From positions 1-42,322 of the forward strand of contig NZ_CANBCC010000033.1 in the NCBI RefSeq assembly GCF_947366995.1: a stretch of DNA of 42,322 bases, in the 5' to 3' direction. Below the pieces are notes generated by a model that was not told the DNA's origin, did no database searches, and saw only the letters and a list, made by a program, of their open reading frames with translations. This document shows positions 8 through 37,774 of the stretch, piece by piece; within the stretch, counting starts at the first letter, position 1, and each line of letters starts with the position of its first letter. The position numbers were made by a program, and so were the translations under genes. The DNA comes from an uncultured Aquabacterium sp. Its GTDB lineage: Bacteria > Pseudomonadota > Gammaproteobacteria > Burkholderiales > Burkholderiaceae_C.

Positions 8-41
8 GTGACTGGAGTTCAGACGTGTGCTCTTCCGATCT
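8..41 (+). other. Illumina TruSeq read-2 adapter (assembly artefact)
   Basis: These 34 bases, ending in GCTCTTCCGATCT, match the well-known Illumina multiplexing read-2 adapter. They are not genomic. Translated in the frame of the downstream gene, the adapter gives the peptide MCSSDL, a familiar artefact at the start of predicted proteins from poorly trimmed assemblies. The seven bases before it (1-7) have no clear origin. Everything to the left of base 42 should be ignored for biology. Confidence 0.97.
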
Positions 42-42
42 C

Positions 43-3000
43 ATCAGCCCGGGCCAGCTGAGTGGCGAGGCCGCCCCTTCTTCGCTGGCGTCGACCGCGA
101 CACAGCCGCGCGAGACGAGCTATGTGGAGGGCGCAGATGCCGGCTGGCTCAGCCTGAAGGGCAGCACGCTCTACATCGGCGCCGAGATCCAGGCCGGCGC
201 CGTGGTGGGGCCGCTGCAGCTGTGGGGCAACCCCAGCGGAACGACGGTCTCGGCCGCGGACACGACGGTGCGCCTCAACACCAAGGTGTCGACCGAGCTG
301 GGGCGGCTTGCCACACTCATCGACAAGCCACACCTGTATGCCGCTGTGCGGCCGCTCGGGGGGCGCGTCGACATCGAGAACACCCAGGGCTCGGTGCGGT
401 TGCAGGCGGACACCGCGGGCGCCATGCCGACGCTGCCCGATGAGGATGGGGGTGCTGCGTCGAACTGGTTGGCCGGCTTGGCGACCGAGACCCGCGTGTC
501 GGCCACCATGCTGCAGAACAGCGGGGCCTCGGCCGTGGCCCTGAAGGCGACCCACACCAGCGACACGGTGCCGCACGACGTGAACGTGGATGCCGACGTG
601 AGACTGGATCTGGGCGCGTCGGGTTCGTTCCTGGCGGCAAGCCAGGGCGGCGGCACGGTGACGATGGCGGGGCAGGTGCGCGCTGCAGGCGGCACCATTG
701 CGCTGGAAGCCGGTCAGGCCCGCGCCAGTGGCACCGGCGAAGGCAACGCCATTGGCGCTGGCCCGGGGAATGTCATTGTCGCGTCGACGGCCGTGCTGGA
801 TGTGTCGGGCGGGGCGAGTGCCCGCGGCGCCGAGGCCGATGGCGGGCAGATTGCGATCAAGGCCGGCCACAGCGTGTCGGTGGCCGGGGGGGCCTTGCTC
901 AACGTGTCGGCCGCGCTGCTGCGTGGCGCGCCGTCGGGCACGGTGAAAGGCGAGGCCGGCGGCATCAACCTCCAGGTCAACACCGCCGTGCCGGCAGGCG
1001 TGCCGGAAGACACCGTCTCAGGAAAGTTGATCCTGGCGGGCACCTTGCGTGGCTTCGATTTCAACCGAGGCGGCAAGCTGGCGATCGGTGGCCTGCGGAG
1101 CCTCTGGATCGGTGAGCCGACGGCCCAGGTTCCGCAGGCACTGCAAAGCGGACTGCAGATCGCACCGACCTTCTTCTCCGAAGGCGGATTCGGCACGTTC
1201 ACGCTTCAGACCAAGGGCGACATCGTGGTGGCGGACCACACCCGCATCGTGCCCAGGCTCGTCAACCTGAGCGAGCCGGTGAACTCGTCGCAGATCAATG
1301 TGGGCCGCGCCGGCCCGACGGGCACGGCGATGGCCGCAGAGACCGAGCGCGTGGTGCTGGACGATGCGCTGCGGCAGCCGGTTTCGATCACGCTGGATGC
1401 ATCGGCCTTGAAGGCCGATGTGGCGATGTCGATCCAGCCAACCGGGTTGAACCGGGGGGGCAGCGTCACGCTGGGCGTGGGCGCGGTGATGGACGCCGGG
1501 CTCGGCGGCAGCCTCACGCTGCGTGGCAGCTACCGCGTGGACGTTCACGGTGCGCTGCTGGCGCGGGGCGGCGACGTGACGGTGGGACTCGGCACCGACA
1601 CGGTGTTGCACCGGGTGGGCTCGTCGCCCACCAACGCGCTCGAACTCGACCCGGTGGGCTACCTGCCCGACCAGGCCGTTCAGCTGCACGACACCAGCCT
1701 GATCGACGTATCGGGTGCGGCCAGGGTGCGTGCCACCACGGTGGCCGGCCAGACGCGACTTGTCGGCGACGTGCTGGGCGGCGGCACGGTCAGCCTCAAC
1801 CCGGATGCCCAACGCGGCTGGGTGCTGATGGACGAAGGGGCGGTCATCAACCTGAGCGGTGCACAGGCCGCGCTGCATACGGGGGTGTCGCGTCAGGCCA
1901 CGACCGTGAGCGCCGCAGCGGGCACGCTCAACGTCTCCTCTCTGTATGGCTTCTACCTGGGCGGCACCCTGATCGCCCACCGCCCGGACGCCAGCGTGTC
2001 CGGCGGGCAGTTCAACGCGCGCTCGGTGGCAGGCAGCATCCGTGATTTCCAACTGCAGCCCGACACCGTGCCGGGCACGGCCTTCCCGGTGACGGCGCTG
2101 TCTGAGGTGGGGCGCATCCGCGTGGTGGGCGAGGGGCAGGCGGTTTCAACGGACGCCGCCGCGCGAACCTTTGGTGAGAGCCAGGTCTCGGCCTCGGGGC
2201 TGCTGGACAGCGGCTTTGATCGCCTGTCCTTCACGGCCAGCGAGCGGGTGGTGCTGGGGCGCGATGCCAACCTGGTCGCCAGACCGGCCGACCGCGCGGG
2301 CCATGTGCCACTGCGCTCGGTGGTGCTGGACGCGCCGGTCATCGCCGCAGAGGCCAGTGCTTCAGGCACGCCGAACGCCGTGACGGTACAGGCCCACCAT
2401 GTCAGCATCGGCTCGGCCCGATCGGCCGACCCGGCGTTGGGCATGCAGCCGCCGGGCGCAGCCACGACGGGCACGGCCGCGCTGACGGTGAACGCAGGGC
2501 TGATCGACTGGTATGGCACACACGCCTTCCAAGGGTTCGCCAACGTCGCGTTGCGGGCCACGTTGTCTGCCAAGCACGAGGTGGGCGCGCGCCGCAATGG
2601 CGAGATCCGCCTCAACGGCCTGGGCGCTGGTACGACGCGGCCGACCGCGGCCCTGTTGTTCGATGGCCACCTCGAACTGCAGGCGGGCAACCTGTACGCC
2701 AGCACGCTGACCGATGCCCGGATCGAGGGTACCGCGACGTCCACCCTGCAGACCCTGAATCCCGAGAAGGGCTCCAGCAGCGCGTCGCCACTGTCTGCCC
2801 TGGGGCGCCTCACGCTGGACGCCGGCACGGTGAGCCACGCCGGCACGATCGACCAGCCGTTCGGCGACATCCGGATCACCGGAACCCAGGTGGCGCTGCA
2901 GGACGGCAGCCGGCTTTCCGTCAGCGGCGAGGGGCTGGTGGTGCCGGTGGGCTTCATGCTGAACGGGCAGCGCTGGCTGTATGGCACGAGCGAGGCCGGC

Positions 3001-6000
3001 GTTGCCTCTTCTGCGGATGCCAAGGCCGTGCTGGATCTGGTGGACCTGCACAAGGACGTCACGGTCGAATCGCCGAACCTGACGGTGGCGTCCAGCTCAC
3101 GTATCCAGGCCCAGGCCGGTGGTGACCTGCTGGCGTGGGAGTTCGTGGAAGGCGTGGGCGGCACGAAGGACACCTTCAACCGCGCCGGCGTCTATGCCAT
3201 TGTTCCGAGCCACACATACGAGTTTGCCCCCTACGACACACAGACGGCGCTGACTGCAGCGGCCAACGGGCAACCCCTGTCTGTCGGTGCGCAGGTCCGG
3301 ATCACGAGTGCCAACGGGGCCCTGCCACCGGGCACCTACACGCTGTTGCCCGCACGCTATGGGATCCTGCCAGGCGCGGTGCTGGTGTCGGCCCGGACGC
3401 TGGCGTCGGACCAGCCGCTGGCGACCGGGCTGACACGACCCGATGGCAGTGTGCTGGTCTCGGGCGTCGAGACTGCCGTGGGCACCGACATCAACGGCGG
3501 CAACCGCCGCAACCTCGCGCTGCTGCTGGAGCCGGCTGCGACGGCGGCCGCGCAGTCGCGGGTCGACCGGGTGTCGATCAACGATTTCCTGAGCACGCAG
3601 GAGGGCACGCGACCTGCAACGGGCGGGCGCGTTTCCCTGCTCTCGACCCAGGCGTTCGACTGGACCGCCAGCTACCAGCTCAAGGGCGGCGAGCTCGATC
3701 TCAGCATGGGCCGTTCCCTGGTGGTGGGCCTGGCCGGCACCACCCGGCTGGAGGAGGGCGAAGTGCTGGTGTCGGCAGAGGCCTTGTCTCGCACAGAAGC
3801 CGACAGCATTCTGCTGGGGGGCCAGCGCGAGGAGGTGAAGGGCGAAACCGTCGTCACCGCCAAGGCCGAGCACATCCGGTTCGATGGCGATGTGTCGACC
3901 GGTGAGCTGATCGCGGTGGCCCAGCGCGGCATCGATGTGGCTCAAGGGGTGAGCCTCACCGTCGACGAGGACAAGCACGCCGACACGGACGTGCAGCGCG
4001 TGGTCCGTGTCCAGGGTGATGGGGCTACGCTGGCCGTCAGTCACAACAAGGGCCTGGACGTGCAGCGCGACCTCGCTTCGGTGGCGCCGGGTACCCCGCT
4101 GGCAGGCCAGCTGAGCATCGCCTCGTCCCCGGCCGCACCGAGTGCGCTGAAGGCGGCGCATGTGGTGATGGACGCGGCGGGTGCACTGTCGGTGAACCCG
4201 GACACGGCCATCCAGGCCCGGGCCATGAGCGTGGCCGCCGGGCAGATCGCCATCGGAGACACCACCGCAGACTCGGCCCTGGTGCTGGCCGGTGGCCTGC
4301 TGGAGAGCGTCAACGCCGCCGAGCGCGTGCAGCTGCGCAGCTACGGGGCCATGCAGTTTGCGGCGAATGCAAGCCTGGGCAGCGTGAAGACAGCCCAGTT
4401 GACACTCGATGCCCCCGCCCTCGTCGGCCAGGGGGGTGACATCACCGTGCGCGCCGGCGAGGTGGTGCTCCGCAACACCACCGGGCGCGCCGCGCCGACC
4501 GACCTGACCGGCGCCGGACGACTTCGCATCGAGGCCAACCCGGCCTTGTCGGATGTCCGAACGGGCGGCCTCATTGTGGGCGTCGGGCCGGTGCGCTTGG
4601 CGGCCGAGTCGGTGACGCTGGCGAGCCAGGGCGATCTGGTGTTCGATGGCCGCGGCAAGCAGACCAACACCCTGTCCTCACAGGGCGACCTGACGCTGAG
4701 TGCAGCACGGGTGACGGCCCTGTCGGGTGGAGCGCATCAGGCCCGGGCCGATGGCGTTCTGCGCGTGGAGAAGGCAGCGGGCTCGCGCACACTGGGTGAG
4801 ACCGCCGGGTTGGGCGCGACGCTCGCCCTGTCCGGCACGCGGGTTGAACAGCAAGGCCGTGTCGAGGTGGCTTCGGGCAAACTGGAGATCGAAGGCCGCG
4901 GTGCGACCGACAGCGCCCGGACGGTGGTGCTGGGCGAGGGCTCCGTCACCCGTGCCGCGGGGACCGTCGTCCAGGCAGGCCGCACGTGGGCGGCCAGTTC
5001 GGCAGGCGGCGAGGTGCGCATCCGCGCGGCTTCGGGCGACATCGAGGTCTTGGGCCAGATCGATGTGTCTGCTGGTGGGGTACCCGTGTACGACGGCACC
5101 GGCAAGGTGGTGGGCTGGAAGACAGCCTCTGCTTCCGACAGCGCCAAGGCCGCCGGCACGATCGAACTCAGCGCACCCACCGAAAGCGGTCGCGTGGTGT
5201 TCGGCGCAGAGGCCTCCCTGCTGGGCCGGGCCAGCACCGACACGCTCAGCGGCCAGCTGGTTGTCGACGCGGGCCGTGTTGCCGAGGCGGCCCAGGCCAG
5301 CGCCGCGGCTGGCGTGCGCGGCACGCTGGACCGCCTGGCCGAGCTGAGCAACGAAGGGGGGCTGCACGGCGCGGTCACGGTCCGCTTGCGCGGCACTGAG
5401 GATCAGAGCCTCCACACGGCCATGAAGGCCGTGCGCACGCGCATTTCGGTGGACCAGCGCAGCCTCACACTGGGCCGTGACGCGCTCATCGATGCACGCG
5501 CGCCGCAAGGTGGGATGGTGCAATTGGCGGCGCGCGGCTTGACGCTCGAGGACGGCGCGCGCATCGAGGCGGCCTCCAGCCGCGACGGCGCTCAGGGCGG
5601 CGACGTCCTGCTCTCGGCCACCACGGGCGTGCGCATCGTGACGACGGTCGACGCTGACACGGGCGAAACCACCGTGAGCACGGAGTCGGATCCCGGCGTG
5701 CTGGACCTGCGTGCCGGCGCCACCGTGGATGCAGGAACCGGCCGCATCGTGCTGCGCGCCGAGCGGGACGACAACGAGCTCGCCGCAGCAATGGCCCTCG
5801 CAGCGGATGCCGCGGCACAAGCCGCCGACGGACGGGATCCAGTGCTGGATGCCGCGGCGCTGGCGCGCGGGCTCCGCATGGCGCCAGTGCAGGCGACCCT
5901 GAACGCACGCGAGGTGCTGGTGGAATCGGCCCGCGTGTACGAGCGCAATGACGATGGTGAGGCCTACACCGGCATCCGCACGGCGGCCAGCAGTGGCACG

Positions 6001-9000
6001 CTGCTGGGGCAGCGCGATCTGGCCACCCATGCAGCTGAGTTCCTGGCGGCGCGCGATGTGCTGATGGGCTCGCTGGGCCTGCTCGGTCGGGCACAGCTCC
6101 GTGCAGGCGTCGAAGTGCGTACGACGGGCGACTTCACGGTGTCGAACGACTGGAACCTCTGGCGTGCCGACCGGGCGGACGACCCCACCCTCGCACCGCT
6201 CATGCTGACCCTGCGCGCCGGCGGACACCTGCGCGTCAATGGCACGCTCAGTGACGGTTTCACCACCGCCGCCGCCACGGGCAGCGTCGCACCGGGCGAT
6301 GCGGCGTCTTTCCGCCTCACCGCAGGGGCTGACCTGAGCGCATCCGATCTGCTCGCCGTGCAGCAGACCGCTGCCGAAGCCGACCTCACGGTGGCCGCCG
6401 GCAAGGTGGTGCGCACGACGACGGGCTCGATCGAGATGGCAGCGGCACGCGACGTGGTGCTGGCACCGGGAAGCGGCACCAATCCCGTCCAGGGTCTGGT
6501 GTACGTTGCAGGTCGCCCGGTCGAGTTGCAGGCCGACCAGGTAGCGGCCGCACCCGACGTGAACGCCCTGAGCTACACCGAGCGCGGTGGGCGGCTGGAG
6601 GTGCACGCAGGGCGTGACGTTCGCTCGGCCGCGCCGGTGCAACTGCCGAGCAACTGGCTGCTGCACGCGGGCGTGATGGCCGACGACGGCAGCGTGGGTC
6701 TCGGCGCGTGGGCCAGCTACCTCGCCGGCTTCCGGCAGGGGCTGGGCTCTTTTGGCGGGGGCAACGTGCATGTCTCGGCCGGGCGCGACATCCTCGACCT
6801 CGGGGTCGTGGCACCCACCTCGGCCCGCCACGTCCAGACGTGGACGACCAACACCGACGGAGACGCGGTGCTCGGCACGCCGGCACTGGACGTGCGCAAC
6901 GGCGGTGACGTGACCGTGCAGGCGGCGGGCGACATCCGGGGCGGTGTCTACCTGCTGGGCCGCGGTGAGGGCCGGCTGGAAGCGGGCGGCGCGCTCACGA
7001 CGGGCAGCAATGTCAAGGCCGACGTGCCTGCCCAGGGCGCCATCCTCGCCCTGATGGATGGCCACTGGTCGCTGCAGGCTCGCACCGGTCTGGAGATCGC
7101 CGCGGTCTACAACCCCACGGCGCTGTCTTCGCCCTCGACCACGCGGGTGCCCGCAGAAAGCGCGGCGTCCTTCTTCACGTACGGCAGCGACAGCGGCGTG
7201 CGGCTGTCCAGCGCCGCGGGCGATGTGGTGTGGAATGCCGAAGGCGCCTTCTCGTCTTTCGAGACGCTGGTGGGCACGCCCACCCGGCCCACCACGGTAC
7301 AGGGCTACTTCAACTACCTGCATGGCAGTGGTCAACTCATGCCGGCCGCAGACCGCGTGACGCGGGCGCTGGCGGTGAGCAACCGCCTGGCGCAAGTGGC
7401 GCCGCCCACCGTGCAGGTCAGCGCCCTGGATGGGGCGGTCAAACTGCTGACTTCGGAGCTGTACGCACTGTGGCTTTTCCCGTCGGCCACGGGCAACCTG
7501 AGCGTCTATGCCGGACATGACCTGTCGATTCAAGGCGGCAGTCGCGGCGTGGTGATGCTGGACGGCGATCCGGGACGCTGGCCCAGCGTGAGCCGCCCTG
7601 CGCTGGAAACCGGCTGGACGGACGGCGTCTACGCCACCTTGCGCCCGGCAGAGCTTGGCCTGGCCGGGGAGAACCGCAAGCTGTCGGTCGACACGCTCTA
7701 CAGCAGCACCCTGCACCAGAACGATGCCTTGCCTGCCACGCTGTATGCGGGCGGCAGCATCACCACCGACACGAGACTGACCGTGCCCAAGGCGGCGGTG
7801 GTGGAAGCCGGTGGCGACATCATGGACCTGAGCTTTGCCGGGCAGCATTTCCACGAGACCGACGTCACGCTGATCAAGGCGGGCGGCCGCATCGTGGGAC
7901 GCGACAACACGCTTAGCGACCGCGACAGCGGCATGATCCAGCTGGCCGGGCCGGGTGAACTGCAGGTGGAAGCGGGGACCGACCTCGACCTCCGCACGGC
8001 AGGCGGCATCCAGACCATCGGCAACCTGCCGGGCAGCTACTACGGCATCTCGGCCTTCAACGTCGGCAACGCTGCCTTGCCGGACACCGGGGCCAGCGTG
8101 CGCGTCAGCGCGGGTATGAACCGACGTGTCGACGTGGACACCCTGATGCAACGCTACCTCGCGCAGGATCCGCAGGCACAGGTGGCGCTCGTGAACCACG
8201 TGCGCGGCGTGCTGGCCCTGCCCGCGAGCCAGATGCCCGACCTGAGCGGCCTTGTGGGCGCCGAGTTGCAGACGGCGCTGGCATCGGCCTTCCCGGCCGC
8301 GCTGCAGTACTACAGGCAGTTCAGCCAGGCTCACCAACTGAGCTTCGCCGAGGCAGTGGTCGACCGCGCGTTTGTGGCCCGCTACGTGGCCCCGGGCCAG
8401 GCGTACGCCGTCGCATGGGCAGCCCGTGCCAGCGCGCTCGGTCTCGACCCGGCCCGCACCGAGGGAACGGCCTTCCAGCAGTTCAAGGACGAAGTCCTGA
8501 TAGGTGAGGTGCGCCGGCTGGGCCAGCAGGCGGTCGAACTGGCCGACTCGACCGACCCGGCCGAGAACCAGCGCCGCCAGGCACAACGCAACGCGCTGTG
8601 GGCCCAGGTCGATGAAGTCACCAGCCTCGCCGGCCTGGGGGCAGGCTTCCATTTCGATGGCGACATCAACCTCGCTTCGAGCAAGATCCACACCCTGGCA
8701 AATGGCAACCTGTTGTCGGGAGGCGCCGACCTCTTCGCGCCTGGTGGGCAGATTCTGGTGGGCTACTCGTCCTCGACGCCGACCGACCGGGACAACGCGG
8801 CCACGCGCGGCCTGGTGGCCTACAACGGCGGCAGCATCCGCGCGTTGGCCGATGCCGACTTCCAGGTCAACACCCAGAAGGCCTTTGTGGTCGGTGAAGG
8901 TGACCTCGTCCTGTACAGCCGGCGCGGAGCCATCGACTCCGGCCGCGGCTCGAACACGGACGTGACGGTGCCTGCGCCCGTACCGGTGGTCGATCCCCTC

Positions 9001-9456
9001 ACGGGGGCGGTGGTGTTCCGCTCACCCGCCGTCACCACCGGCAGCGGCATCGGCCTGCTGAAGAAGGCGGACGGCACGTCCCGCGGCACCGTGGACCTCT
9101 TCGCGCCCATCGGCGGTGTGCTGGCGCTCGACACCTTCATCCGCAACGAGTCGGGTGGCGACATCCGCGTGGCCGGGCCGGTCAAGGGCGGCGACAACCT
9201 CAAGGGCAACGTCAAGGGCGGTGCGCCCACCGTCTCCCGTCCGTCGGTGAAGGTCGGCACGAAGATGCCCGGAGAGGTCACCTCGGGCGCCACGCAGATG
9301 GCCGAAGCCAGCCAGGCCGCGCGTCGCAAGGAAGCCAACGGCATCCTCACGGTGGAGTTGCTGAGCCTGGGCGATGACAGCGTGACCCGAAGCGGCGCGC
9401 CCCAGGCGGGCCCGGCCTCGCCCTGCCCACCGAACGAGCGCGACTGCGCGCGCTGA
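43..9456 (+). CDS. Giant filamentous-haemagglutinin-family protein, 5'-truncated
   Basis: The visible 3137 residues are the C-terminal part of a very large secreted protein. The bulk is degenerate beta-helix sequence rich in Gly, Ala, Val, Ser and Thr with recurring GGxV/AGGDI-like turns, typical of filamentous haemagglutinin and HMW-type adhesins. The segment encoded at about 8760-9200 (AATRGLVAYNGGSI onward, with DSGRGSNTDV and GTVDLFAPIGGVLALD) resembles the DUF3739 domain found near the end of such proteins. In the family, an N-terminal TPS domain is exported through a TpsB/FhaC pore; both would lie left of the window. The translation has no cysteine until the last ten residues, where CPPNERDC occurs. 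The apparent GTG start at 25 lies inside sequencing adapter, so the true start is unknown. The energiser operon follows on the same strand. Family assignment is firm; ligand and role are unknown. Confidence 0.85.
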   Translation: MSPGQLSGEAAPSSLASTATQPRETSYVEGADAGWLSLKGSTLYIGAEIQAGAVVGPLQLWGNPSGTTVSAADTTVRLNTKVSTELGRLATLIDKPHLYAAVRPLGGRVDIENTQGSVRLQADTAGAMPTLPDEDGGAASNWLAGLATETRVSATMLQNSGASAVALKATHTSDTVPHDVNVDADVRLDLGASGSFLAASQGGGTVTMAGQVRAAGGTIALEAGQARASGTGEGNAIGAGPGNVIVASTAVLDVSGGASARGAEADGGQIAIKAGHSVSVAGGALLNVSAALLRGAPSGTVKGEAGGINLQVNTAVPAGVPEDTVSGKLILAGTLRGFDFNRGGKLAIGGLRSLWIGEPTAQVPQALQSGLQIAPTFFSEGGFGTFTLQTKGDIVVADHTRIVPRLVNLSEPVNSSQINVGRAGPTGTAMAAETERVVLDDALRQPVSITLDASALKADVAMSIQPTGLNRGGSVTLGVGAVMDAGLGGSLTLRGSYRVDVHGALLARGGDVTVGLGTDTVLHRVGSSPTNALELDPVGYLPDQAVQLHDTSLIDVSGAARVRATTVAGQTRLVGDVLGGGTVSLNPDAQRGWVLMDEGAVINLSGAQAALHTGVSRQATTVSAAAGTLNVSSLYGFYLGGTLIAHRPDASVSGGQFNARSVAGSIRDFQLQPDTVPGTAFPVTALSEVGRIRVVGEGQAVSTDAAARTFGESQVSASGLLDSGFDRLSFTASERVVLGRDANLVARPADRAGHVPLRSVVLDAPVIAAEASASGTPNAVTVQAHHVSIGSARSADPALGMQPPGAATTGTAALTVNAGLIDWYGTHAFQGFANVALRATLSAKHEVGARRNGEIRLNGLGAGTTRPTAALLFDGHLELQAGNLYASTLTDARIEGTATSTLQTLNPEKGSSSASPLSALGRLTLDAGTVSHAGTIDQPFGDIRITGTQVALQDGSRLSVSGEGLVVPVGFMLNGQRWLYGTSEAGVASSADAKAVLDLVDLHKDVTVESPNLTVASSSRIQAQAGGDLLAWEFVEGVGGTKDTFNRAGVYAIVPSHTYEFAPYDTQTALTAAANGQPLSVGAQVRITSANGALPPGTYTLLPARYGILPGAVLVSARTLASDQPLATGLTRPDGSVLVSGVETAVGTDINGGNRRNLALLLEPAATAAAQSRVDRVSINDFLSTQEGTRPATGGRVSLLSTQAFDWTASYQLKGGELDLSMGRSLVVGLAGTTRLEEGEVLVSAEALSRTEADSILLGGQREEVKGETVVTAKAEHIRFDGDVSTGELIAVAQRGIDVAQGVSLTVDEDKHADTDVQRVVRVQGDGATLAVSHNKGLDVQRDLASVAPGTPLAGQLSIASSPAAPSALKAAHVVMDAAGALSVNPDTAIQARAMSVAAGQIAIGDTTADSALVLAGGLLESVNAAERVQLRSYGAMQFAANASLGSVKTAQLTLDAPALVGQGGDITVRAGEVVLRNTTGRAAPTDLTGAGRLRIEANPALSDVRTGGLIVGVGPVRLAAESVTLASQGDLVFDGRGKQTNTLSSQGDLTLSAARVTALSGGAHQARADGVLRVEKAAGSRTLGETAGLGATLALSGTRVEQQGRVEVASGKLEIEGRGATDSARTVVLGEGSVTRAAGTVVQAGRTWAASSAGGEVRIRAASGDIEVLGQIDVSAGGVPVYDGTGKVVGWKTASASDSAKAAGTIELSAPTESGRVVFGAEASLLGRASTDTLSGQLVVDAGRVAEAAQASAAAGVRGTLDRLAELSNEGGLHGAVTVRLRGTEDQSLHTAMKAVRTRISVDQRSLTLGRDALIDARAPQGGMVQLAARGLTLEDGARIEAASSRDGAQGGDVLLSATTGVRIVTTVDADTGETTVSTESDPGVLDLRAGATVDAGTGRIVLRAERDDNELAAAMALAADAAAQAADGRDPVLDAAALARGLRMAPVQATLNAREVLVESARVYERNDDGEAYTGIRTAASSGTLLGQRDLATHAAEFLAARDVLMGSLGLLGRAQLRAGVEVRTTGDFTVSNDWNLWRADRADDPTLAPLMLTLRAGGHLRVNGTLSDGFTTAAATGSVAPGDAASFRLTAGADLSASDLLAVQQTAAEADLTVAAGKVVRTTTGSIEMAAARDVVLAPGSGTNPVQGLVYVAGRPVELQADQVAAAPDVNALSYTERGGRLEVHAGRDVRSAAPVQLPSNWLLHAGVMADDGSVGLGAWASYLAGFRQGLGSFGGGNVHVSAGRDILDLGVVAPTSARHVQTWTTNTDGDAVLGTPALDVRNGGDVTVQAAGDIRGGVYLLGRGEGRLEAGGALTTGSNVKADVPAQGAILALMDGHWSLQARTGLEIAAVYNPTALSSPSTTRVPAESAASFFTYGSDSGVRLSSAAGDVVWNAEGAFSSFETLVGTPTRPTTVQGYFNYLHGSGQLMPAADRVTRALAVSNRLAQVAPPTVQVSALDGAVKLLTSELYALWLFPSATGNLSVYAGHDLSIQGGSRGVVMLDGDPGRWPSVSRPALETGWTDGVYATLRPAELGLAGENRKLSVDTLYSSTLHQNDALPATLYAGGSITTDTRLTVPKAAVVEAGGDIMDLSFAGQHFHETDVTLIKAGGRIVGRDNTLSDRDSGMIQLAGPGELQVEAGTDLDLRTAGGIQTIGNLPGSYYGISAFNVGNAALPDTGASVRVSAGMNRRVDVDTLMQRYLAQDPQAQVALVNHVRGVLALPASQMPDLSGLVGAELQTALASAFPAALQYYRQFSQAHQLSFAEAVVDRAFVARYVAPGQAYAVAWAARASALGLDPARTEGTAFQQFKDEVLIGEVRRLGQQAVELADSTDPAENQRRQAQRNALWAQVDEVTSLAGLGAGFHFDGDINLASSKIHTLANGNLLSGGADLFAPGGQILVGYSSSTPTDRDNAATRGLVAYNGGSIRALADADFQVNTQKAFVVGEGDLVLYSRRGAIDSGRGSNTDVTVPAPVPVVDPLTGAVVFRSPAVTTGSGIGLLKKADGTSRGTVDLFAPIGGVLALDTFIRNESGGDIRVAGPVKGGDNLKGNVKGGAPTVSRPSVKVGTKMPGEVTSGATQMAEASQAARRKEANGILTVELLSLGDDSVTRSGAPQAGPASPCPPNERDCAR

Positions 9457-9474
9457 CAACACGCGGCGCTCCCT

Positions 9475-9532
9475 CCGATGGTCCGATCTGCACCACCTGT
9501 CCAGGGGGGCGCTGGTCCGATCGGACCATCGG
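9475..9532 (+). terminator. Long stem-loop after the giant adhesin gene
   Basis: CCGATGGTCCGATC at 9475-9488 is repeated exactly as its reverse complement at 9519-9532, leaving a 30-base loop. The right arm overlaps a self-complementary GGTCCGATCGGACC at 9514-9527, so alternative foldings are possible. It lies 18 bases after the stop codon of the adhesin gene and is not followed by a T run. It may be a partial terminator, an mRNA-stabilising hairpin or a protein-binding site. Confidence 0.6.
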
Positions 9533-9539
9533 CTTTACC

Positions 9540-9558
9540 AAGGGGGACACACCCCCTT
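9540..9558 (+). terminator. Compact hairpin before the DUF2341-ExbB gene
   Basis: AAGGGGG (9540-9546), loop ACACA and CCCCCTT (9552-9558) form a perfect 7-bp stem. It follows the larger stem-loop by eight bases and ends 36 bases before the next start codon. With the first hairpin it could lower readthrough from the giant gene into the energiser genes. No T tract follows, so Rho-independent termination is not assured. Confidence 0.5.
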
Positions 9559-9594
9559 CTGACAATCGCTCACCTGTCCTGAACACCTGTTGCC

Positions 9595-11292
9595 ATGAAT
9601 GCCGTCCGGAAAGCTGTCTGCCTGATTGCCATGTTGTCTGCCTTCGCCAGTGCGCCTGCGCGTGCCTGGTGGGATACCGACTACAAACAGCGCACCCGTG
9701 TGACGCTGAACACGTCCAGCGATGGCGTGACCACGCAGGAGGCGCTCGCGGGCCCCGTCATTCCGGTGCGCCTGCATTCGGGCAACTTTGACTTTGTCGG
9801 TGCACGTGAAGATGGCAGCGACCTGCGCGTCGTCGCCGCAGACGACAAGACCCCGCTGAAGTTCTGGGTCGAGCGCTTCGATGGCGCCAATGAACTGGCC
9901 GTGCTGTGGGTGCAGCTGCCGAACGTGGCACCGGGCACGGACAAGAACGCCGTGTACGTGTACGCCGGCCACGACAAGGCGGCTGCCGAGACGACCTCGC
10001 CGAAGCTCTTCGACGCCGCCATGCGGGCCGTAGTCCCCTTCGGCGGCAAGGCCGGCGAAGAGCTCCTCAATGGCCTGCAGGCTGCCGGGCCGGTGGCGCA
10101 GGAAGCGAACGGTCTGATCGGTGCAGCGGCCCAGCTTCAGGGGCAGGCGCTGACCTGGAAAGGCGACACGCTGAAGGGCGAGCCGCAAGGGCCTCACAGC
10201 GTGAGCCTGTGGCTGAAGCCCGCCACGCTGGATGGCACGGTGTTCGAGCAGGGGGCGCTCAAGCTGGTTGTGGCGGGCGGATCGCTCAAGGCCACGCTCG
10301 GTACGGCGCAGGCCGCGGGCGGCACGCTGCCCGTGTCTTCGTGGGCGCACCTCGCCGTCACGGTGGGGGCGGGCAAGCTGACGCTGTATGTGAACGGCGC
10401 ACAGGCGGCGCAAGCCGAGCTCGCGGGCGGGCAGGCGCCCATTGCCGGCGAGATCTCGGTCGGTGCCGGCCTGACCGGTCAGGTCGATCAGCTGGAGGTG
10501 GCCAACACCGTGCGCAGCAGCGACTGGGTGAAGTTCGCCCACGCGGCGCAGGGCGCCGAAGCCAAGCTGGTTCTGTCGGTGACGCAGACGCCCGAGACCG
10601 CCGAGTCCGAAGCGGAAGCCGGTGAGGCCGGCCACTTTGCCATCCTGGTCGACAACCTCACCACCGACGCCTGGGTCGTGATCGTGATCCTGGCCATCAT
10701 GTTCGTCATCGCCATCTGGGTCATGTACGACAAGGCCGTGCTGGTGGGCCGGGCCGACAAGGACAACCGCCGCTTTCTGGCCGCGTTCCGCGACAGCAAG
10801 GACGTAATGTCCGTGGCGGCGCAAGGCATGCCGCACTCGCAGCTGGCGCGGCTGTACCAGGCTGGCCTGCGCGAGTTGCGCAAGCGGGATGTCGGTGCAC
10901 CCGGCGCAGCGCCCCTGAGTGGCGCGTCGATCGACGCGGTGAAGGCCGCCATCGACGCCGACCTGGTGCGCGAGGGACACACCCTCAACAGCCGCATCGT
11001 GCTGCTCACCATCGCGATCTCTGGTGGGCCCTTTCTGGGGCTGCTGGGCACCGTCGTCGGCGTCATGATCACCTTTGCGGCCATCGCCGCAGCGGGTGAC
11101 GTCAACGTAAACGCCATCGCCCCGGGCATTGCGGCCGCGCTGCTGGCGACGGTGGCAGGCCTCGGCGTCGCCATCCCGGCGCTGTTCGGCTACAACTACC
11201 TCGCGTCGCGCATCAAGTCGATCTCGGCCGACATGAGCATCTTTGTTGACGAGTTCGTGACGCGCGTGGCCGAAAACCACGGCGCACGCTGA
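9595..11292 (+). CDS. DUF2341-LamG-ExbB/TolQ fusion proton-channel protein
   Basis: The 565-residue protein combines an extracytoplasmic sensor-like part with a Ton/Tol motor subunit. A signal sequence (1-24, cleavage near APARA) is followed by a DUF2341 domain (about 25-130, beginning WWDTDYKQRTRVTLN). A concanavalin-A/LamG-like sandwich follows at about 195-310 (HSVSLWLKPATLDG, then AHLAVTVGAGKLTLYVNG). A membrane helix lies at about 358-377, and the MotA/TolQ/ExbB domain at about 460-560 carries LGLLGTVVGVMITF and ALLATVAGLGVAIPAL. T486 and T519 match the conserved pore threonines of ExbB. It probably forms an inner-membrane proton channel with the two following ExbD proteins and powers the TonB-like protein. 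The N-terminal domains would sit in the periplasm and might bind glycan or peptidoglycan; that is inference. No strong ribosome-binding site is visible before ATG 9595. Confidence 0.88.
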   Translation: MNAVRKAVCLIAMLSAFASAPARAWWDTDYKQRTRVTLNTSSDGVTTQEALAGPVIPVRLHSGNFDFVGAREDGSDLRVVAADDKTPLKFWVERFDGANELAVLWVQLPNVAPGTDKNAVYVYAGHDKAAAETTSPKLFDAAMRAVVPFGGKAGEELLNGLQAAGPVAQEANGLIGAAAQLQGQALTWKGDTLKGEPQGPHSVSLWLKPATLDGTVFEQGALKLVVAGGSLKATLGTAQAAGGTLPVSSWAHLAVTVGAGKLTLYVNGAQAAQAELAGGQAPIAGEISVGAGLTGQVDQLEVANTVRSSDWVKFAHAAQGAEAKLVLSVTQTPETAESEAEAGEAGHFAILVDNLTTDAWVVIVILAIMFVIAIWVMYDKAVLVGRADKDNRRFLAAFRDSKDVMSVAAQGMPHSQLARLYQAGLRELRKRDVGAPGAAPLSGASIDAVKAAIDADLVREGHTLNSRIVLLTIAISGGPFLGLLGTVVGVMITFAAIAAAGDVNVNAIAPGIAAALLATVAGLGVAIPALFGYNYLASRIKSISADMSIFVDEFVTRVAENHGAR

Positions 11293-11303
11293 GCGGGGCG
11301 GTC

Positions 11304-11711
11304 ATGGCCGGTGACGTCAAAGGCGATCTGCAGGCGTACGACGACATCAACGTCACGCCCATGCTGGACCTGGCCTACGTGCTGCTCGTCGTCTTCATCA
11401 TCATGACGACCGCTTCCGTGCAGGGCGTGAAGGTCGAGAGCCCGCAGACGCTGGCGGCCAACAACCTGGCCAAGCCGCAGACCAAGGGCATCACGATCAC
11501 CGCCGACGGACAGGTGTACCTCGACGCCTACCCGGTGAGCCTGGAGGAGCTGCAGTCCACGCTGGCGCAGTACAAGGCCGCCAACCCCGCTCTGCCCGTG
11601 ATCCTGAAGGCCGACGCCGCGGCGCAGTACGACAAGGTGATGGCGGTGCTCGAGATCGCGAAGCGCCTGGACATCACCGAAATCGGTCTGGCGACCAAAC
11701 GGGCGCAGTGA
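11304..11711 (+). CDS. exbD: ExbD/TolR family biopolymer transport protein (first copy)
   Basis: This 135-residue inner-membrane protein has the ExbD/TolR layout: a short cytoplasmic N-terminus, one membrane helix at about 23-42 and a periplasmic domain. The helix entry INVTPMLDLAYVLL contains D22, equivalent to the proton-carrying aspartate of ExbD. In known systems an ExbD dimer sits within an ExbB pentamer and couples proton flow to TonB movement. The gene starts 11 bases after the ExbB-fusion gene and is followed after 7 bases by a second exbD, so it belongs to the same transcript. The periplasmic part differs clearly from the second copy, so the pair may form a heterodimer or serve two partners. 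Family assignment is secure; the partner is inferred from gene order. Confidence 0.92.
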   Translation: MAGDVKGDLQAYDDINVTPMLDLAYVLLVVFIIMTTASVQGVKVESPQTLAANNLAKPQTKGITITADGQVYLDAYPVSLEELQSTLAQYKAANPALPVILKADAAAQYDKVMAVLEIAKRLDITEIGLATKRAQ

Positions 11712-11718
11712 GGGCCAC

Positions 11719-12120
11719 ATGCAGGTTCAGGACGACACCCGCCCCTACGACAGCATCAACGTCACGCCCATGCTCGACCTGGCGTACGTGCTGCTCGTCG
11801 TGTTCATCCTCATGACGACGGCGTCGGTGCAGGGCCTCACGGTCAACATGCCCAAGCCCAGCAACAAGCCGAGCACCGAGAAGCACGAGTTGAAGGTTGT
11901 GCAGGTGATGGCCGATGGCGCGTTGCTGCTCAACGGCGCGGCCATCAGCATGGCCGACCTGGAACGCCAGCTCACGGACGCCCGTGCACGCGACCCGAAG
12001 ATGAGCGTCGCCATCAAGGGCGATGCACGCACGCACTACGCCAAGGTGGTGGCCGTGATCGACCTGTGCAACAAGCTCGAGGTGGGCATGGGCCTTGTCA
12101 CTTCGCGCATCGGGACCTGA
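11719..12120 (+). CDS. exbD: ExbD/TolR family biopolymer transport protein (second copy)
   Basis: The 133-residue product has the same layout as its upstream neighbour: INVTPMLDLAYVLLVVFI with D20 at the start of the single membrane helix, then a periplasmic domain of about 90 residues. Helix sequences of the two copies are almost identical while the periplasmic parts are diverged (KPSNKPSTEKHELKVV here). A GAGGG ribosome-binding site spans the preceding intergenic region. In the Ton, Tol and Mot families this subunit carries the essential aspartate. Two tandem exbD genes with one exbB recur in some proteobacterial TonB loci. It is probably co-translated with the TonB-like gene that starts 9 bases downstream. 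Confidence 0.92.
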   Translation: MQVQDDTRPYDSINVTPMLDLAYVLLVVFILMTTASVQGLTVNMPKPSNKPSTEKHELKVVQVMADGALLLNGAAISMADLERQLTDARARDPKMSVAIKGDARTHYAKVVAVIDLCNKLEVGMGLVTSRIGT

Positions 12121-12129
12121 GGAAACGAC

Positions 12130-12831
12130 ATGGCCGAGCTGGCACTGAACCCGACTCCGGACGGTGGCGCTGCCGAGGGTGGCAAGCCACGCTGGCTGGC
12201 GCCTGCTGTCATCACCGTGTTGCTCGTCTGCGGTGCGGGATGGCTGTTTTCGACCCTGGGGGACAGCCCTGCCCCGCCCCGGCGCCAGACGGTGAAGATC
12301 GCGGTGCTGCCCGATACGCCGCCCCCCCCGCCTCCGCCCAAGGAAGAGAAGAAGCCCGAGCCCGACAAGCAGACGCAGCAGGCCGAGCCCGTGCCCATGC
12401 AGCAGCCCAAGCCAATGGAAGCGCCGCCTGAGCCGCAGCAGCTGAAGATGGACGGCCCGGCAGGCGATGGGCCCAGTGCCTTTGCCGCCGGCGCCGTTTC
12501 GCAGGACTACAAGGGCGGCGCCATCGGAAACGGTCCGGGCGGCGGCAACCGCATGCAGTTTGCGTTCTTCACCAACCGCCTGCTGCGCCACATCCAGACC
12601 GAGCTGGCCCGTCGCGCCGAACTCAAAGGCAGCGACTACCGCGTCAACGTGCGCGTCTGGCTGGCGGACGACGGCCAACTGCACCGCATCGAGCTGGCCT
12701 CGTCGTCCGGCGACCCGCAGACCGACCGCCTTCTGCAGGAGGCGTTGACCCGCCTGCCCGCCATCGATCAGGTTCCTTCCAATCTGCCTCAACCCCTGTC
12801 CATGCGCATCACCAACCGCGTGACAGGCTGA
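12130..12831 (+). CDS. TonB-like energy transducer
   Basis: The 233-residue protein has the TonB architecture: a short cytoplasmic tail, one membrane helix at about 25-43 (PAVITVLLVCGAGWLF), and a periplasm-spanning proline-rich stretch at about 47-107 with a run of eight prolines and a Lys/Glu-Pro segment. A C-terminal alpha/beta domain at about 150-233 (NVRVWLADDGQLHRIELASS) resembles the TonB C-terminal domain. In known systems this domain contacts the TonB box of an outer-membrane receptor. No TonB-dependent receptor is present in the window, so the target may be the adjacent beta-barrel, the secreted adhesin or its unseen transporter. A good GAGGAAA ribosome-binding site precedes ATG 12130. 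The C-terminal domain is recognisable but not close to Escherichia coli TonB. Confidence 0.85.
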   Translation: MAELALNPTPDGGAAEGGKPRWLAPAVITVLLVCGAGWLFSTLGDSPAPPRRQTVKIAVLPDTPPPPPPPKEEKKPEPDKQTQQAEPVPMQQPKPMEAPPEPQQLKMDGPAGDGPSAFAAGAVSQDYKGGAIGNGPGGGNRMQFAFFTNRLLRHIQTELARRAELKGSDYRVNVRVWLADDGQLHRIELASSSGDPQTDRLLQEALTRLPAIDQVPSNLPQPLSMRITNRVTG

Positions 12832-12843
12832 CCTCCTCCCATC

Positions 12844-14592
12844 ATGAAGTTCACCTCTGTTCCCGTTCGGCCCACCTTGATGGCGCTGTCCGTGCTGGCT
12901 GTTCTTGCGGCACCGTCGGCCCGGGCCGACCAGGCAGCCTCCATCGAAGCGGCGCGCCAGACCACGCTGAGCCTGATCGAAGTGCTGGTGGAATCCGGCG
13001 TGCTGACGCGGGACAAGGCCGATGCCATCCTCAAGCAGGCCGAGCAGCGGGCGGCTCAGGCCGTCGCAGCGAAACCGGCTGGCGCGGGCACCTTGCAGGC
13101 AACCCATGAGACCGGCGGCACCGGCACCGGCGCGCGCCCCGTGATACGGGTGCCCTACCTCAGTGAGGCGGCGCGCACCCAGCTGCGCAACGAGGTGCGA
13201 GAAGAAGTGCTGGCCCAGGCCCGACAGGAACGCTGGGGGGTGCCCAACGCACCGTCCTGGATCGACCGGGTGCGCATCGAGGGCGACATCCGCTACCGCT
13301 ATCAGAAGGACCGCCCTTCCAGCGACAACACCCCGGCCGACGACTACGTGGCCGCGCTGTTCAGCGGCACCGGCGGCCTGACCCGTGCGGCGGATTTCAT
13401 GGGCTACGAAGCCGTGACCATCGATGGCGCGGATTACGCGCTTGCGTCGGGCAACACGCAGAAGGCCCGCAGCCGCGAGCGGCTCCGTGCGCGCCTGGCG
13501 GTCTCGGCCAAGGTCAGCGACGAAGTCGGAGCCGGCTTCCGCCTGACCACCGGCAGCGCCACGGACCGCGTCTCCACCAACCAGACGCTGGGCCAGGACT
13601 TCAACAAGTACCAGGTGTTTCTCGACCGGGCTTTCCTGCGGCTGGATCCCAACGAGTACGTGACCCTGCAGGCGGGGCGCATTCCCAACCCGTGGTTCGG
13701 CACCGAAATGGTCTGGTCGGAAAACCTCAACTTCGAAGGCGTGGCGGCCAGCGCGCGGTGGTTCAACGAAGACCGCACCGCCGTTCCGTTCGCCACGGTG
13801 GGCTGGTTCCCGATTCGCGAGCAACGGCCGGGCGAGCGCGGCGGGCGATCCCTGATCGGCGCGCAGGTTGGCGCGCAGCTCGAGCCGACCTCACGCACCA
13901 AGGTCAAGCTGGGCCTGGCCTACTACCGCTACCAGAATCTGGAAGGCCGGGAAGACAACGGCTACTACGTCGAGTCCAACGGCGGCAGTGTGGCCGACCC
14001 GATCGTGTACGGACGCCACGAGTACGGCCGCAACCTGCGTCAGAAGGGCAACACCCTGTTTCAGACCAACCCGGCCGACCTGACGCCGGTCTGGGGCCTG
14101 GCCTACAAGTTCGAGCCGATGGTGTTGACCGCGTCGGCAGAGTTCATGCACTTTGCGCCCTTCAGCCTGATGGTGTCGGCCGAGTACGCGAAGAACCTGG
14201 GCTTCGATGCTGCTGACTTCCGCCGCCGCGCGGGCAGCGCCTTTGCCGGCGTCAACCCGGGTGGCAAGGACGACGGCTACATCATGAAGGCCGCCTTCGG
14301 CTGGCCCGAGGTGACCGACCTGGGCCACTGGCAGCTCACGACGTCGTACCGCCACATCGGCTCGGACGCGGTGCTCGACGCCTTCAACGACAGCGATCTC
14401 GGCCTTGGCGGCACCAACCTTGAGGGCTACACGCTCGGCTTCAACCTCGGGCTGGCCCGCCAGACGATGCTGGGCGTGCGCTACCTGGCAGGCCGCACGA
14501 TCGACTCTCCGCTCAACAACCTGACCAACGCTCAGAGCAAGGCGAAGTACCAGGTCAACACGCTGCAGGTGGATCTCAATGTGCGCTTCTGA
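12844..14592 (+). CDS. Putative outer-membrane porin (Porin_5-like)
   Basis: The 582-residue protein starts with a signal peptide (cleavage near PSARA, residue 29). A helical segment at about 33-75 (TTLSLIEVLVESGVLTRDKA) may be periplasmic or trimerising, and a linker leads to YLSEAARTQLRNEVREEV at about 103-120. The rest is beta-barrel-like with alternating hydrophobic residues and aromatic girdles (IRYRYQKDRP, AFLRLDPNEYVTLQAGRIPNPWFG), ending in VDLNVRF with the terminal Phe typical of outer-membrane barrels. This matches the family annotated as putative porin. Its place after exbB-exbD-exbD-tonB suggests that its function, or that of a partner, depends on the energiser. Substrate is unknown. 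The following gene overlaps its last 14 bases. Confidence 0.85.
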   Translation: MKFTSVPVRPTLMALSVLAVLAAPSARADQAASIEAARQTTLSLIEVLVESGVLTRDKADAILKQAEQRAAQAVAAKPAGAGTLQATHETGGTGTGARPVIRVPYLSEAARTQLRNEVREEVLAQARQERWGVPNAPSWIDRVRIEGDIRYRYQKDRPSSDNTPADDYVAALFSGTGGLTRAADFMGYEAVTIDGADYALASGNTQKARSRERLRARLAVSAKVSDEVGAGFRLTTGSATDRVSTNQTLGQDFNKYQVFLDRAFLRLDPNEYVTLQAGRIPNPWFGTEMVWSENLNFEGVAASARWFNEDRTAVPFATVGWFPIREQRPGERGGRSLIGAQVGAQLEPTSRTKVKLGLAYYRYQNLEGREDNGYYVESNGGSVADPIVYGRHEYGRNLRQKGNTLFQTNPADLTPVWGLAYKFEPMVLTASAEFMHFAPFSLMVSAEYAKNLGFDAADFRRRAGSAFAGVNPGGKDDGYIMKAAFGWPEVTDLGHWQLTTSYRHIGSDAVLDAFNDSDLGLGGTNLEGYTLGFNLGLARQTMLGVRYLAGRTIDSPLNNLTNAQSKAKYQVNTLQVDLNVRF

Positions 14593-15253
14593 TGTCCGTC
14601 GCCAAGCGGTATCTCACCCAAGGACCGCGCGACGCTGGTTGTGGCTCGGCCTGGCACTGGCCGTCGCGCTGCCGGTGCAGGCGCAGTCCGACCGGGAACG
14701 CGAGCAGATTCGCCGCCTGAGAGAGCAGCTGCGCCAGCAACAGCAGGTGCAGTCCGAGTTGCAGGCGGGGCAACAGGCTGCCCAGGCGGCAGCGGCCCGC
14801 CAGAAGAACGAGTTCGACAGCGCGCTGGCTGCAGCCCGAGCCGGTCAGAGCGCCGTGGCCCGCAAGCTGCAGGCCTTGCAGGACGAAGCCAACGGCTTGC
14901 GTGCAGACCGCGCACGGCTGGAGGGTGAGTTGCAGCAGGCCCGTGATGAGGTGACCCGCGTGAACGACGCCAGCCGCCAGGCCCGTTCTGCCGCACAACA
15001 GGCCGAGCAACGCGCCCAACAACAGCTCACCGCCCAAGGCCAGAGCCTGGCGTCCTGCCGCGCAGACAACGCCACCCTGGCGGCACTGGGCCACGAGCTG
15101 TTGGCCCGCTACGAGAACAAGGGCTTGCTCGATGTCTTCCAGGAAAACGAGCCCTTTGTGCAGGCAGGCCGCGTGACGCTGGAAAACGCCCAGGCCACCT
15201 ACGCCGAGCGCCTGGCCAAGGCCCGCCAGCGCCCCGCATCCGACGCCCGCTGA
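14579..15253 (+). CDS. Exported coiled-coil protein of unknown function
   Basis: This 224-residue product has an N-terminal export signal (RRWLWLGLALAVALPVQAQ, cleavage near residue 37) followed by about 130 residues of predicted coiled coil rich in Gln, Arg, Ala and Glu. The C-terminus is more globular (LGHELLARYENKGLLDVFQ). The start at ATG 14579 overlaps the porin gene by 14 bases, which suggests translational coupling; no other in-frame ATG lies before the signal sequence. The location suggests a periplasmic scaffold or peptidoglycan-spanning partner of the energiser-porin system. No enzymatic motif is seen. It is the last gene of the run: fabI converges on it with only 15 bases between the stops, and no clear terminator is visible there. 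Confidence 0.75.
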   Translation: MCASDVRRQAVSHPRTARRWLWLGLALAVALPVQAQSDREREQIRRLREQLRQQQQVQSELQAGQQAAQAAAARQKNEFDSALAAARAGQSAVARKLQALQDEANGLRADRARLEGELQQARDEVTRVNDASRQARSAAQQAEQRAQQQLTAQGQSLASCRADNATLAALGHELLARYENKGLLDVFQENEPFVQAGRVTLENAQATYAERLAKARQRPASDAR

Positions 15254-16030: not shown

Positions 16031-16067
16031 CTCACGCCCTTGCGATGCTGCGGTGCCGCAAATCCTC

Positions 16068-17144: not shown

Positions 17145-17311
17145 GGACGGAAAAGGAAGGAGGAAAGGCGTGTCATGCCCGGCCTAGAGCAGCCAGGATG
17201 CCTGCCCCCCGGAGACAGGGGGTAGCTGAACAGGCTCGGCGCTTGCTGCGCCGGCCGATACGGCAAATTGCCGCAATTGAACAAACTGCGGCAGTCGTTG
17301 CCGGCAATTTA
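17145..17311. other. Intergenic region with nested inverted repeats
   Basis: This stretch between hns and the permease gene has no convincing ORF. It contains AAATTGCCG/CGGCAATTT arms (17265-17273 and 17302-17310) and, inside them, GCCGCA/TGCGGC arms (17270-17275 and 17287-17292). These may form alternative hairpins in the hns 3' region or a regulatory site for the downstream permease gene. No promoter was identified with confidence. Confidence 0.4.
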
Positions 17312-17332: not shown

Positions 17333-17361
17333 GGGCCCGGTGCAGATGACCGGGTCGAAAC

Positions 17362-37773: not shown

Positions 37774-37774
37774 G

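Follow-up and report, generated by a model that had tools for sequence, protein, structure and literature searches.

A giant two-partner-secreted exoprotein encoded with a Ton-type motor, a porin and a coiled-coil protein in an uncultured Aquabacterium

In Pseudomonas aeruginosa, the Pdt/PUMA3 cluster (PA0674-PA0701), which belongs to the sigma-VreI regulon, is described as containing pdtA, pdtB, exbB2-exbD2-tonB4, PA0696 and PA0697 (PMC2729926, PMC7035377), and its two-partner secretion (TPS) genes, ExbBD and PA0696 are reported to be conserved together (PMC2729926). The cluster is regulated by VreI and PhoB (PMC4971064, PMC7035377). In 2020 the exbB2-exbD2-tonB4 genes were called 'still uncharacterized' (PMC7035377), and a published guess is that the TolA/TonB-like domain of VreA has an unknown outer-membrane partner. 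R. palustris and Janthinobacterium were reported with three tpsA genes and one tpsB-exbBD-PA0696 unit (Llamas 2009; PMC2729926). Here we analyse a stretch of 42322 bases (the window), the entire contig C33 of an uncultured Aquabacterium sp. genome (4.0 Mb, 127 contigs, 99.85% complete), in which a giant exoprotein is encoded together with a Ton-type motor. The locus is a variant of the published Pdt/PUMA3 kind that lacks adjacent VreA-VreI-VreR (VreAIR) genes and has two ExbD.

A second comparison is with SiiAB-SiiE of Salmonella SPI4, where a Mot/Exb/Tol-type proton channel is dedicated to one giant adhesin. SiiAB is reported to be dispensable for SiiE secretion and to control surface retention of the adhesin, which an uncoupler lowers (PMC6272769, PMC12607715). 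That system differs from the present one in using type I secretion, its published accounts drawn on here describe no TonB-like protein or porin, and the two are not homologous as systems. Since Pfam matches among the window's cassette proteins include no type I secretion ABC transporter or adapter, the comparison with SiiAB-SiiE is one of working principle.

Composition of the Aquabacterium cluster

Positions 43-15253 carry seven plus-strand genes, encoding a DUF3739 exoprotein, a DUF2341-LamG-ExbB fusion, two ExbD, a TonB-like protein, a Porin_5 barrel and a coiled-coil protein (hereafter the cassette). An earlier note on this DNA had proposed seven co-directional genes here, and Pfam matches and open reading frames (ORFs) bear out all of them on one strand. 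Its start at 43 is right in that genuine sequence begins at about base 42, the preceding bases 8..41 (no strand assigned) being an exact 34-base Illumina adapter string, a contig-end artefact and not genome; but a contig break deprives the first gene of about 624 N-terminal residues. Translation through the adapter gives the protein a spurious N terminus (residues LSGDWSSDVCSSDL) that might be taken into databases; the real gene is divided between two contigs. A gap of 138 bases separates the exoprotein gene from exbB, and the gaps from exbB through the coiled-coil gene are operon-like (11, 7, 9, 12 and -14 bases). Scans between the genes returned no promoter-like sites and six terminator-like sites (shuffle mean 3.8), and Rfam and tRNA scans gave no match. 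The gene after 15253 is a convergent short-chain dehydrogenase.

The truncated exoprotein gene (43..9456, plus strand) encodes the C-terminal 3137 residues of a giant TPS exoprotein, a TpsA/PdtA-like 'adhesin'. It carries DUF3739 (8899..9207, plus strand; PF12545, E 4.7e-13, residues 2967-3069) and matches a full-length copy, P0008 (3761 aa; PF13018 ESPR, PF05860 TPS and PF12545 DUF3739 domains), at 3131/3131 compared residues; P0008 differs across the adapter region, agreement starting at about window residue 15. Searching the genome for TpsB led to contig C21, which ends within the same exoprotein gene (its 3' end is locus L233). The ORF there is identical to the start of P0008 over 615/615 residues, so that the first 615 of the missing residues are located and about nine fall between C21 and C33. 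Judged from P0008 and the L233 N terminus, the window exoprotein is a giant TpsA with a TPS domain. The gene order on L233 is type II secretion system (T2SS) F and E, four small genes, a secretin, three pseudopilins, an EpsA-type LuxR regulator, an ankyrin-type protein, a PEP-CTERM protein, a c7-family protein, a 548-aa TpsB and, directly downstream, the exoprotein start. Both this TpsB, lost to the window through the contig break, and the P. aeruginosa counterpart lie beyond what the earlier note had seen.

The motor begins with a 565-aa fusion of DUF2341, LamG (ConA-like) and an ExbB/TolQ proton-channel subunit (9595..11292, plus strand; Pfam MotA_ExbB 6.6e-28, Laminin_G_3 8.8e-12, DUF2341 9.9e-11), whose residues 359-557 are matched by TolQ/ExbB chains in the PDB and whose hydrophobic segments lie at 348-385, 466-493 and 503-521. 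DUF2341 has been described as an appendage of unknown function (PMC12505986). The fusion is followed on the plus strand by ExbD 1 (11304..11711, 135 aa; PF02472 E 9.8e-27), ExbD 2 (11719..12120, 133 aa; PF02472 E 9.6e-23) and a 233-aa TonB-like putative force transducer (12130..12831; PF13103, TonB_2, E 2.3e-7; tonB_Cterm 1.4e-6). The last has one hydrophobic segment (21-45), a Pro-rich stretch and a TonB_2/TolA-like C-terminal domain, and matches tolA_full at 1.8e-5, under its cut-off. When ExbD 1 is aligned to PDB ExbD the membrane Asp, which we presume to be the functional residue, is in register; with the membrane part of ExbB aligning to TolQ, the motor looks intact. Seven MotA_ExbB-family matches occur in the genome, one of them the cassette's, so further motors of this family exist beside it. 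The ExbB fusion also led to five named loci of metagenome-assembled genomes among the relatives (three Aquabacterium, one Burkholderiales, one Proteobacteria; 68-77% identity).

The 582-aa Porin_5 outer-membrane barrel (12844..14592, plus strand; E 1.1e-140) has N-terminal helices and a conserved [VI]PY[VL]PE-like segment. No PDB relative was found by sequence at E up to 1, and a fold search was therefore used. The predicted model and this search indicate a 16-strand barrel, with the N-terminal helices at middling or low confidence. The best fold match is the tethering porin OmpM1 of Veillonella, an attachment porin that shares the 16-strand barrel but only 17% identity, and whose stalk-borne, peptidoglycan-binding SLH domain has no Pfam match in the window porin; OprP is among the fold neighbours, and similarity to Porin_O_P is weak and below cut-off. 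The coiled-coil protein (14579..15253, plus strand; a later start at 14639 is possible) matches no family above cut-off. Profile comparison with cluster c28, which occupies the PA0697 position in VreAIR-type clusters, gives a probability of 99.6 (E 6.9e-25), and on this evidence the two are one family.

The likeness to Pdt/PUMA3, as that cluster is published, lies in the gene set and order TpsB, ExbB, ExbD, TonB, putative porin and PA0697-type protein, and in the adjacent giant TpsA and T2SS; PA0696 and PA0697 were equated by gene order and published annotation. The window differs in having no adjacent VreA-VreI-VreR, PA0698 (YbjN) or PA0699 (PpiC), in having EpsA, a PEP-CTERM gene and a second ExbD, in the position of TpsA between TpsB and ExbB, and in lacking the M2 motif described below. 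No VreA-VreI-VreR genes were recognised in the window or L233, the remaining genome not having been searched, and for this reason we do not file the window as PUMA3. In the literature searched, as far as its texts were available, we found neither the EpsA/PEP-CTERM setting nor the almost complete co-occurrence of DUF3739 with DUF2341-ExbB and Porin_5, nor the TpsB clade or the motifs M1 and M2; DUF3739 as sole search term returned no literature.

Linkage of the exoprotein to the motor and the TpsB clade

The earlier note had suggested surveying genomes for linkage between the adhesin and the motor, and the linkage is conserved. In the order sample (200 genomes), DUF2341 occurs in 25 genomes and DUF3739 in 23; both are present in 22, DUF3739 alone in 1, DUF2341 alone in 3 and neither in 174 (Fisher p 4.6e-25, a rough guide because species are not independent). 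The two families lie within 3 kb on one contig in 20 of the 22; they are 21 kb apart in G158 and on two contigs in G166. The only DUF3739 without DUF2341 (G135) lies 0.4 kb from a contig end, and DUF2341 without DUF3739 is found in G038 and G137, where the frame exceeds 1300 aa, in contrast to the ExbB fusion, and in G052, where the contig measures 3.5 kb. The phylum sample (349 genomes, sharing at least G000, G049 and G158 with the order sample) contains DUF3739 in 11 and DUF2341 in 10, all 10 among those 11, the exception being G469. Among 99 genomes of the family of G325, DUF3739 is found in 4 and DUF2341 in 4/4 of these, and among 121 of the order of G392 the counts are 3 and 3/3. Porin_5 matches 28/200 genomes of the order sample; E is below 1e-100 in 23, namely the 22 two-family genomes and G082, which has a partial gene at a contig start and no DUF3739 or DUF2341 match, and five further genomes match weakly and in part. 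A chance neighbourhood is excluded by the co-occurrence counts in the two samples.

Neighbourhoods of relatives were gene-called with a purpose-made caller. Around 38 DUF2341-ExbB genes, a set that is not unbiased since its loci were found via DUF2341, DUF3739 or similarity to the window, ExbD is present in 38/38, TonB in 37/38, Porin_5 in 34/38 and a coiled-coil protein of either cluster in 30/38. An exoprotein or TpsB lies within two genes upstream in 29/38. Five of the nine misses (G144, G037, G193, G072, G118) have a cut c21 piece at the edge of the stretch (in G118 the contig edge), which was taken for an exoprotein end; L006 and G016 are gene-calling cases, and in G166 and G454 the exoprotein gene lies on a different contig. 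The cassette, with its genes in the same order, recurs in further orders of the class and in one or more further classes of the phylum, and the unit persists in many families, from two classes or more, with changing regulators and neighbours. Exoprotein genes outnumber motors in some genomes, with six DUF3739 matches and one DUF2341 in G695, and three and one in G392. The motor is thus not tied to one ligand-binding exoprotein, and a role at the level of TpsB or of the exoprotein tail fits better than uptake of a single ligand.

Two genomic settings were distinguished. In the EpsA type, typical of Burkholderiales-level relatives and including the window with its EpsA/PEP-CTERM/T2SS island, the order is T2SS/pseudopilus, EpsA, PEP-CTERM protein, c7, TpsB, exoprotein, motor, porin and coiled coil, followed in several genomes by a PEP-CTERM-associated CAAX protease and EpsL. 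In the VreAIR type, genes for VreA-like, ECF sigma and FecR proteins precede the exoprotein, TpsB adjoins ExbB, and YbjN and PpiC lie downstream. Eight VreA-like proteins were scanned: STN matched 8/8 (7 above cut-off) and TonB_2 matched 6/8 at E up to 0.05 (4 above cut-off); neither of the two motor TonB proteins scanned contained STN. G586 has T2SS, a PstS-like gene, exoprotein and then TpsB-ExbB-ExbD-TonB-porin-c28-YbjN-PpiC, the order published for PA0677-PA0699. In G469 (L111, L112), both DUF3739 exoproteins are accompanied by VreA-like, ECF and FecR genes. Cluster c7 (13 loci; L233 12028-13302) comprises exported proteins of about 510 aa with no Pfam match, encoded between the T2SS island and TpsB; its profile similarity to the PstS-like c43, found near the exoprotein in VreAIR/Hxc-type clusters, is weak (69% probability over 129 columns). 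An ankyrin-repeat-type protein (cluster c16; L233 9739-10635; G075, G157, G097 and others) recurs in the T2SS/EpsA/PEP-CTERM island.

The motor-linked TpsB form a single clade, to which the 548-aa TpsB of C21 belongs. For comparison, 30 other TpsB loci were taken from the same genomes among the matches listed; 7 were removed as motor-linked copies, none lacked a match and 23 were kept. In the resulting 52-tip tree, the 29 motor-linked TpsB are fully separate from the 23 others (unrooted split support 1.0; clade support 0.89 after midpoint rooting). The nearest relatives of the motor-linked TpsB are a motor-free sister group (L203, L207, L209, L210, L217, L219, L220). Neighbourhoods were obtained for 21 of the 23 as 20 stretches, 8/20 of them shorter than 19 kb (seven limited by contig ends, and L245). 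When these 20 stretches were searched with the window cassette proteins, blastp found nothing at 1e-4, and the profiles of ExbB, ExbD, TonB, Porin_5 and the coiled coil found nothing at 1e-3, while identical queries detect their families in the cassette set and the TpsB profile matches 18/20 of the control stretches. In support of the earlier note's interpretation, these 20 other TPS loci, which lie in cassette-bearing genomes, lack such a motor. The cassette resembles classical TPS (FhaB/FhaC, HMW1) in its ESPR, TPS domain and ShlB/FhaC-type TpsB; it differs in that the controls lack a motor and DUF3739 and show no clear M1. Among complete TpsA of the control stretches the TPS domain is present in 5/5 and DUF3739 in 0/5, and the M1 regex finds nothing in 4/5 and a poor match in L239.

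The exoprotein tail and the proposed action of the motor

After DUF3739 the exoprotein continues with an Ala/Ser/Gln-rich stretch and a strand-like C-terminal motif, M1 (NGILTVELLSLGD; 9337..9375, plus strand), defined by conservation profile and regex, whose family form is PSFITVEVLGFG (xPSFITVEVLGFG). M1 resembles TonB boxes and is a candidate TonB handle. The regex finds M1 in the last 140 residues of 96/120 listed homologues (the best 120 of 158) and in 29/2400 random windows of the same proteins. It is present in 39/44 exoproteins of the neighbourhood set and missing in G097, L004, G349 (2) and G454; G097, L004, G454 and G349 C4 nonetheless contain related strings. A model of the last 330 residues (mean pLDDT 55.5, residues 253-330 below 50) predicts two helices, a beta-strand-rich part and a disordered tail with M1, which is compatible with M1 as a short linear motif, weak as the model is.

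The two settings differ in what follows M1. EpsA-type proteins (n=21; assigned by upstream EpsA/PEP-CTERM/c7 in 13, via L233 for the window and by kinship in 7: G173, G166, L002-L006) end 3-47 residues past M1 where it was found; G029, mis-placed by the regex, is short too. In the VreAIR/Hxc type (n=20; G325, G563, G574 and G586 assigned by T2SS/PstS-like context, G291 and G486 by ECF and FecR in the stretch, three G392/G695 copies by genome) a tail of 41-69 residues follows and a second motif, M2 (VQVLGAG-like), is present in 17/20, the misses being G291 and G486, which have a tail in common, and G469 C32, with VVQVSMG in its tail. M2 occurs in 0/21 EpsA-type exoproteins after removal of one regex match (G029, its own M1), against a background of 13/1440 windows of 60 residues. 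The window exoprotein has two cysteines by its extreme C terminus (C-x6-C; 9424..9447, plus strand; seen in the sequence), and at least two Cys lie in the last 60 residues of 7/21 EpsA-type exoproteins. These C-terminal pairs of Aquabacterium-type exoproteins are reminiscent of the C-terminal loop of HMW1.

The reading that we prefer, at a probability of about 0.4, is that a motor driven by the proton-motive force (PMF) holds or releases a TPS adhesin via its C terminus, by analogy with SiiAB-SiiE. The cassette is that part of a Pdt-type two-partner secretion cluster which encodes exoprotein, motor and porin. In this reading the exoprotein would be exported N-end first through its dedicated TpsB, and its C-terminal part (DUF3739, flexible linker and M1 strand) would be kept at or inside the outer membrane. 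There the TonB-like protein of the ExbB-fusion/ExbD motor would pair with M1, so that PMF holds the giant protein on the surface or frees it, while the 16-stranded porin and the coiled-coil protein would serve to anchor the complex at the outer membrane and wall. The gene content, the linkage, the single TpsB clade, the excess of exoprotein genes over motors in some genomes and the conserved tail motifs are observed; beyond these we infer, in particular, that the tail may remain periplasmic, that TonB may bind it and that the energised step may be retention and not export. In VreAIR-type relatives, M2 might let VreA, with its TonB/TolA-like domain, sense the tail and switch on transcription. 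The conjunction that the exoprotein is the TonB-dependent element, with M1 as a TonB-box-like handle at its C terminus and not at the start of a receptor, so that PMF acts on the adhesin, and that M2 is the partner of VreA, making secretion status of the exoprotein the PUMA3 signal, is doubtful.

Several points weigh against this proposal, which is built from sequence, a weak tail model and precedent. Type V secretion is held to require no external energy (PMC5422565), and P. aeruginosa strains mutated in tpsA, tpsB, PA0696 or the tonB homologue are reported to have wild-type virulence in zebrafish (PMC2729926). VreA is apparently dispensable for sigma-VreI activity (PMC7035377), which weakens the step from M2 to VreA. 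The M1 and M2 counts given above lack phylogenetic independence, and the tail model was built on six sequences. G349 C5 has VreA-like, ECF and FecR genes yet neither M1 nor M2 by regex; G349 was set aside, and with its C5 counted as VreAIR-like without M2 the stricter count becomes 17/21. G469 lacks DUF2341 and, among the matches listed, ShlB, although two DUF3739 genes are present. Strand pairing of M1 with the POTRA domains of TpsB is equally possible, and the N-terminal segment of the porin could be an alternative site for TonB.

This last point leads to the best-surviving rival, an unlikely one in our estimate, in which the motor energises the porin: TonB would engage the Porin_5 N-terminal segment and gate the uptake or export of a small solute or polymer, the exoprotein serving as a co-regulated catcher or matrix. 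TonB boxes classically lie at the N terminus of outer-membrane barrels. The strict [VI]PY[VL]PE regex matches 28/37 cassette porins, with near-variants in 8 of the other 9 and nothing seen in G037, and the segment is absent from 5/5 Porin_5-like proteins of cassette-free genomes. The weak Porin_O_P similarity and the OprP neighbour by fold point the same way, as do the reported phosphate regulation of the P. aeruginosa cluster (PMC7035377) and the PstS-like genes beside some exoprotein genes. However, Pfam recognises no plug domain or TonB-dependent-receptor signature in the porin, and its top fold match is a tethering porin and not a gated receptor. To our knowledge 16-strand porins require no Ton energy, and gating would leave the conserved exoprotein tail unexplained. 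The interpretation in the earlier note is partly supported. It had offered export, surface positioning or uptake as the use of the motor; uptake is the least supported because the cassette has no TonB-dependent receptor, and a joint function is, as it was there, something that we infer. No such receptor was matched by Pfam in the 7 cassette proteins and 18 other scanned window proteins, and a conventional siderophore-type Ton locus was dropped for want of a receptor in the cassette.

Less probable again is that the motor powers or speeds exoprotein export through the special TpsB clade. The motor adjoins TpsB in seven genomes in which the exoprotein gene is elsewhere (G158, G506, G291, G486, G325, G586, G349), the TpsB clade is distinct, and complete DUF3739 exoproteins are mostly about 3300-4600 aa. 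Against this, export of other large TpsA proceeds without a motor, TPS is reported to have been reconstituted without energy input (PMC5422565), and the TpsB scanned show no recognised motor-binding domain. Mere co-regulation, with adhesin, motor and porin needed under the same conditions and not physically coupled, is improbable: the pdtA promoter is reported to be separate from the pdtB-exbB2D2-tonB4 unit in P. aeruginosa (PMC4971064), but the unit persists across families and at least two classes despite changing regulators and neighbours, and the paired presence of DUF3739 and DUF2341 is near complete in the samples. The weakest candidate is a motility or force machine moving a surface adhesin along the cell like AglRQS-Glt, which has one TolQ-like and two TolR-like subunits: the window does have one ExbB and two ExbD and a weak TonB-GltJ profile match (E 0.0027, far under cut-off), but the second ExbD is a local variant confined to 8/38 loci (window, L002-L006, G025, G072) and the scanned window proteins were assigned to no further Glt family, leaving this reading highly improbable.

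Surroundings and implications

Outside the cassette, plus-strand frames at 15603-17638 are not genes. A weak phage-integrase-family match (E 3.4e-6) lies at 17831-18979, genes for proteins of 648 aa (23530-25476) and 210 aa (25630-26262) have no Pfam match at the cut-offs used, and a PGA_cap (capsule synthesis) domain protein is encoded at 32214-33563. An RND efflux operon (ACR_tran, HlyD-type, OEP) adjoins a two-component regulator pair (34693-40128, 40335-42322). The window's genome (G000) has two matches to the exosortase XrtB, on C107 and C23 (L255, L256).

If our preferred reading of a motor that holds or releases the exoprotein is true, a giant protein secreted by the two-partner route would have a PMF motor of its own, at odds with the view that TPS is wholly energy-free, and SiiAB-SiiE would be one instance of a general design. 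DUF3739, DUF2341-ExbB and Porin_5, none of which has an established role, would then join as parts of a single machine. Moreover, M1 and M2 make two questions, what TonB4/ExbBD2 acts on and what signal VreA receives, amenable to peptide-binding and deletion tests.

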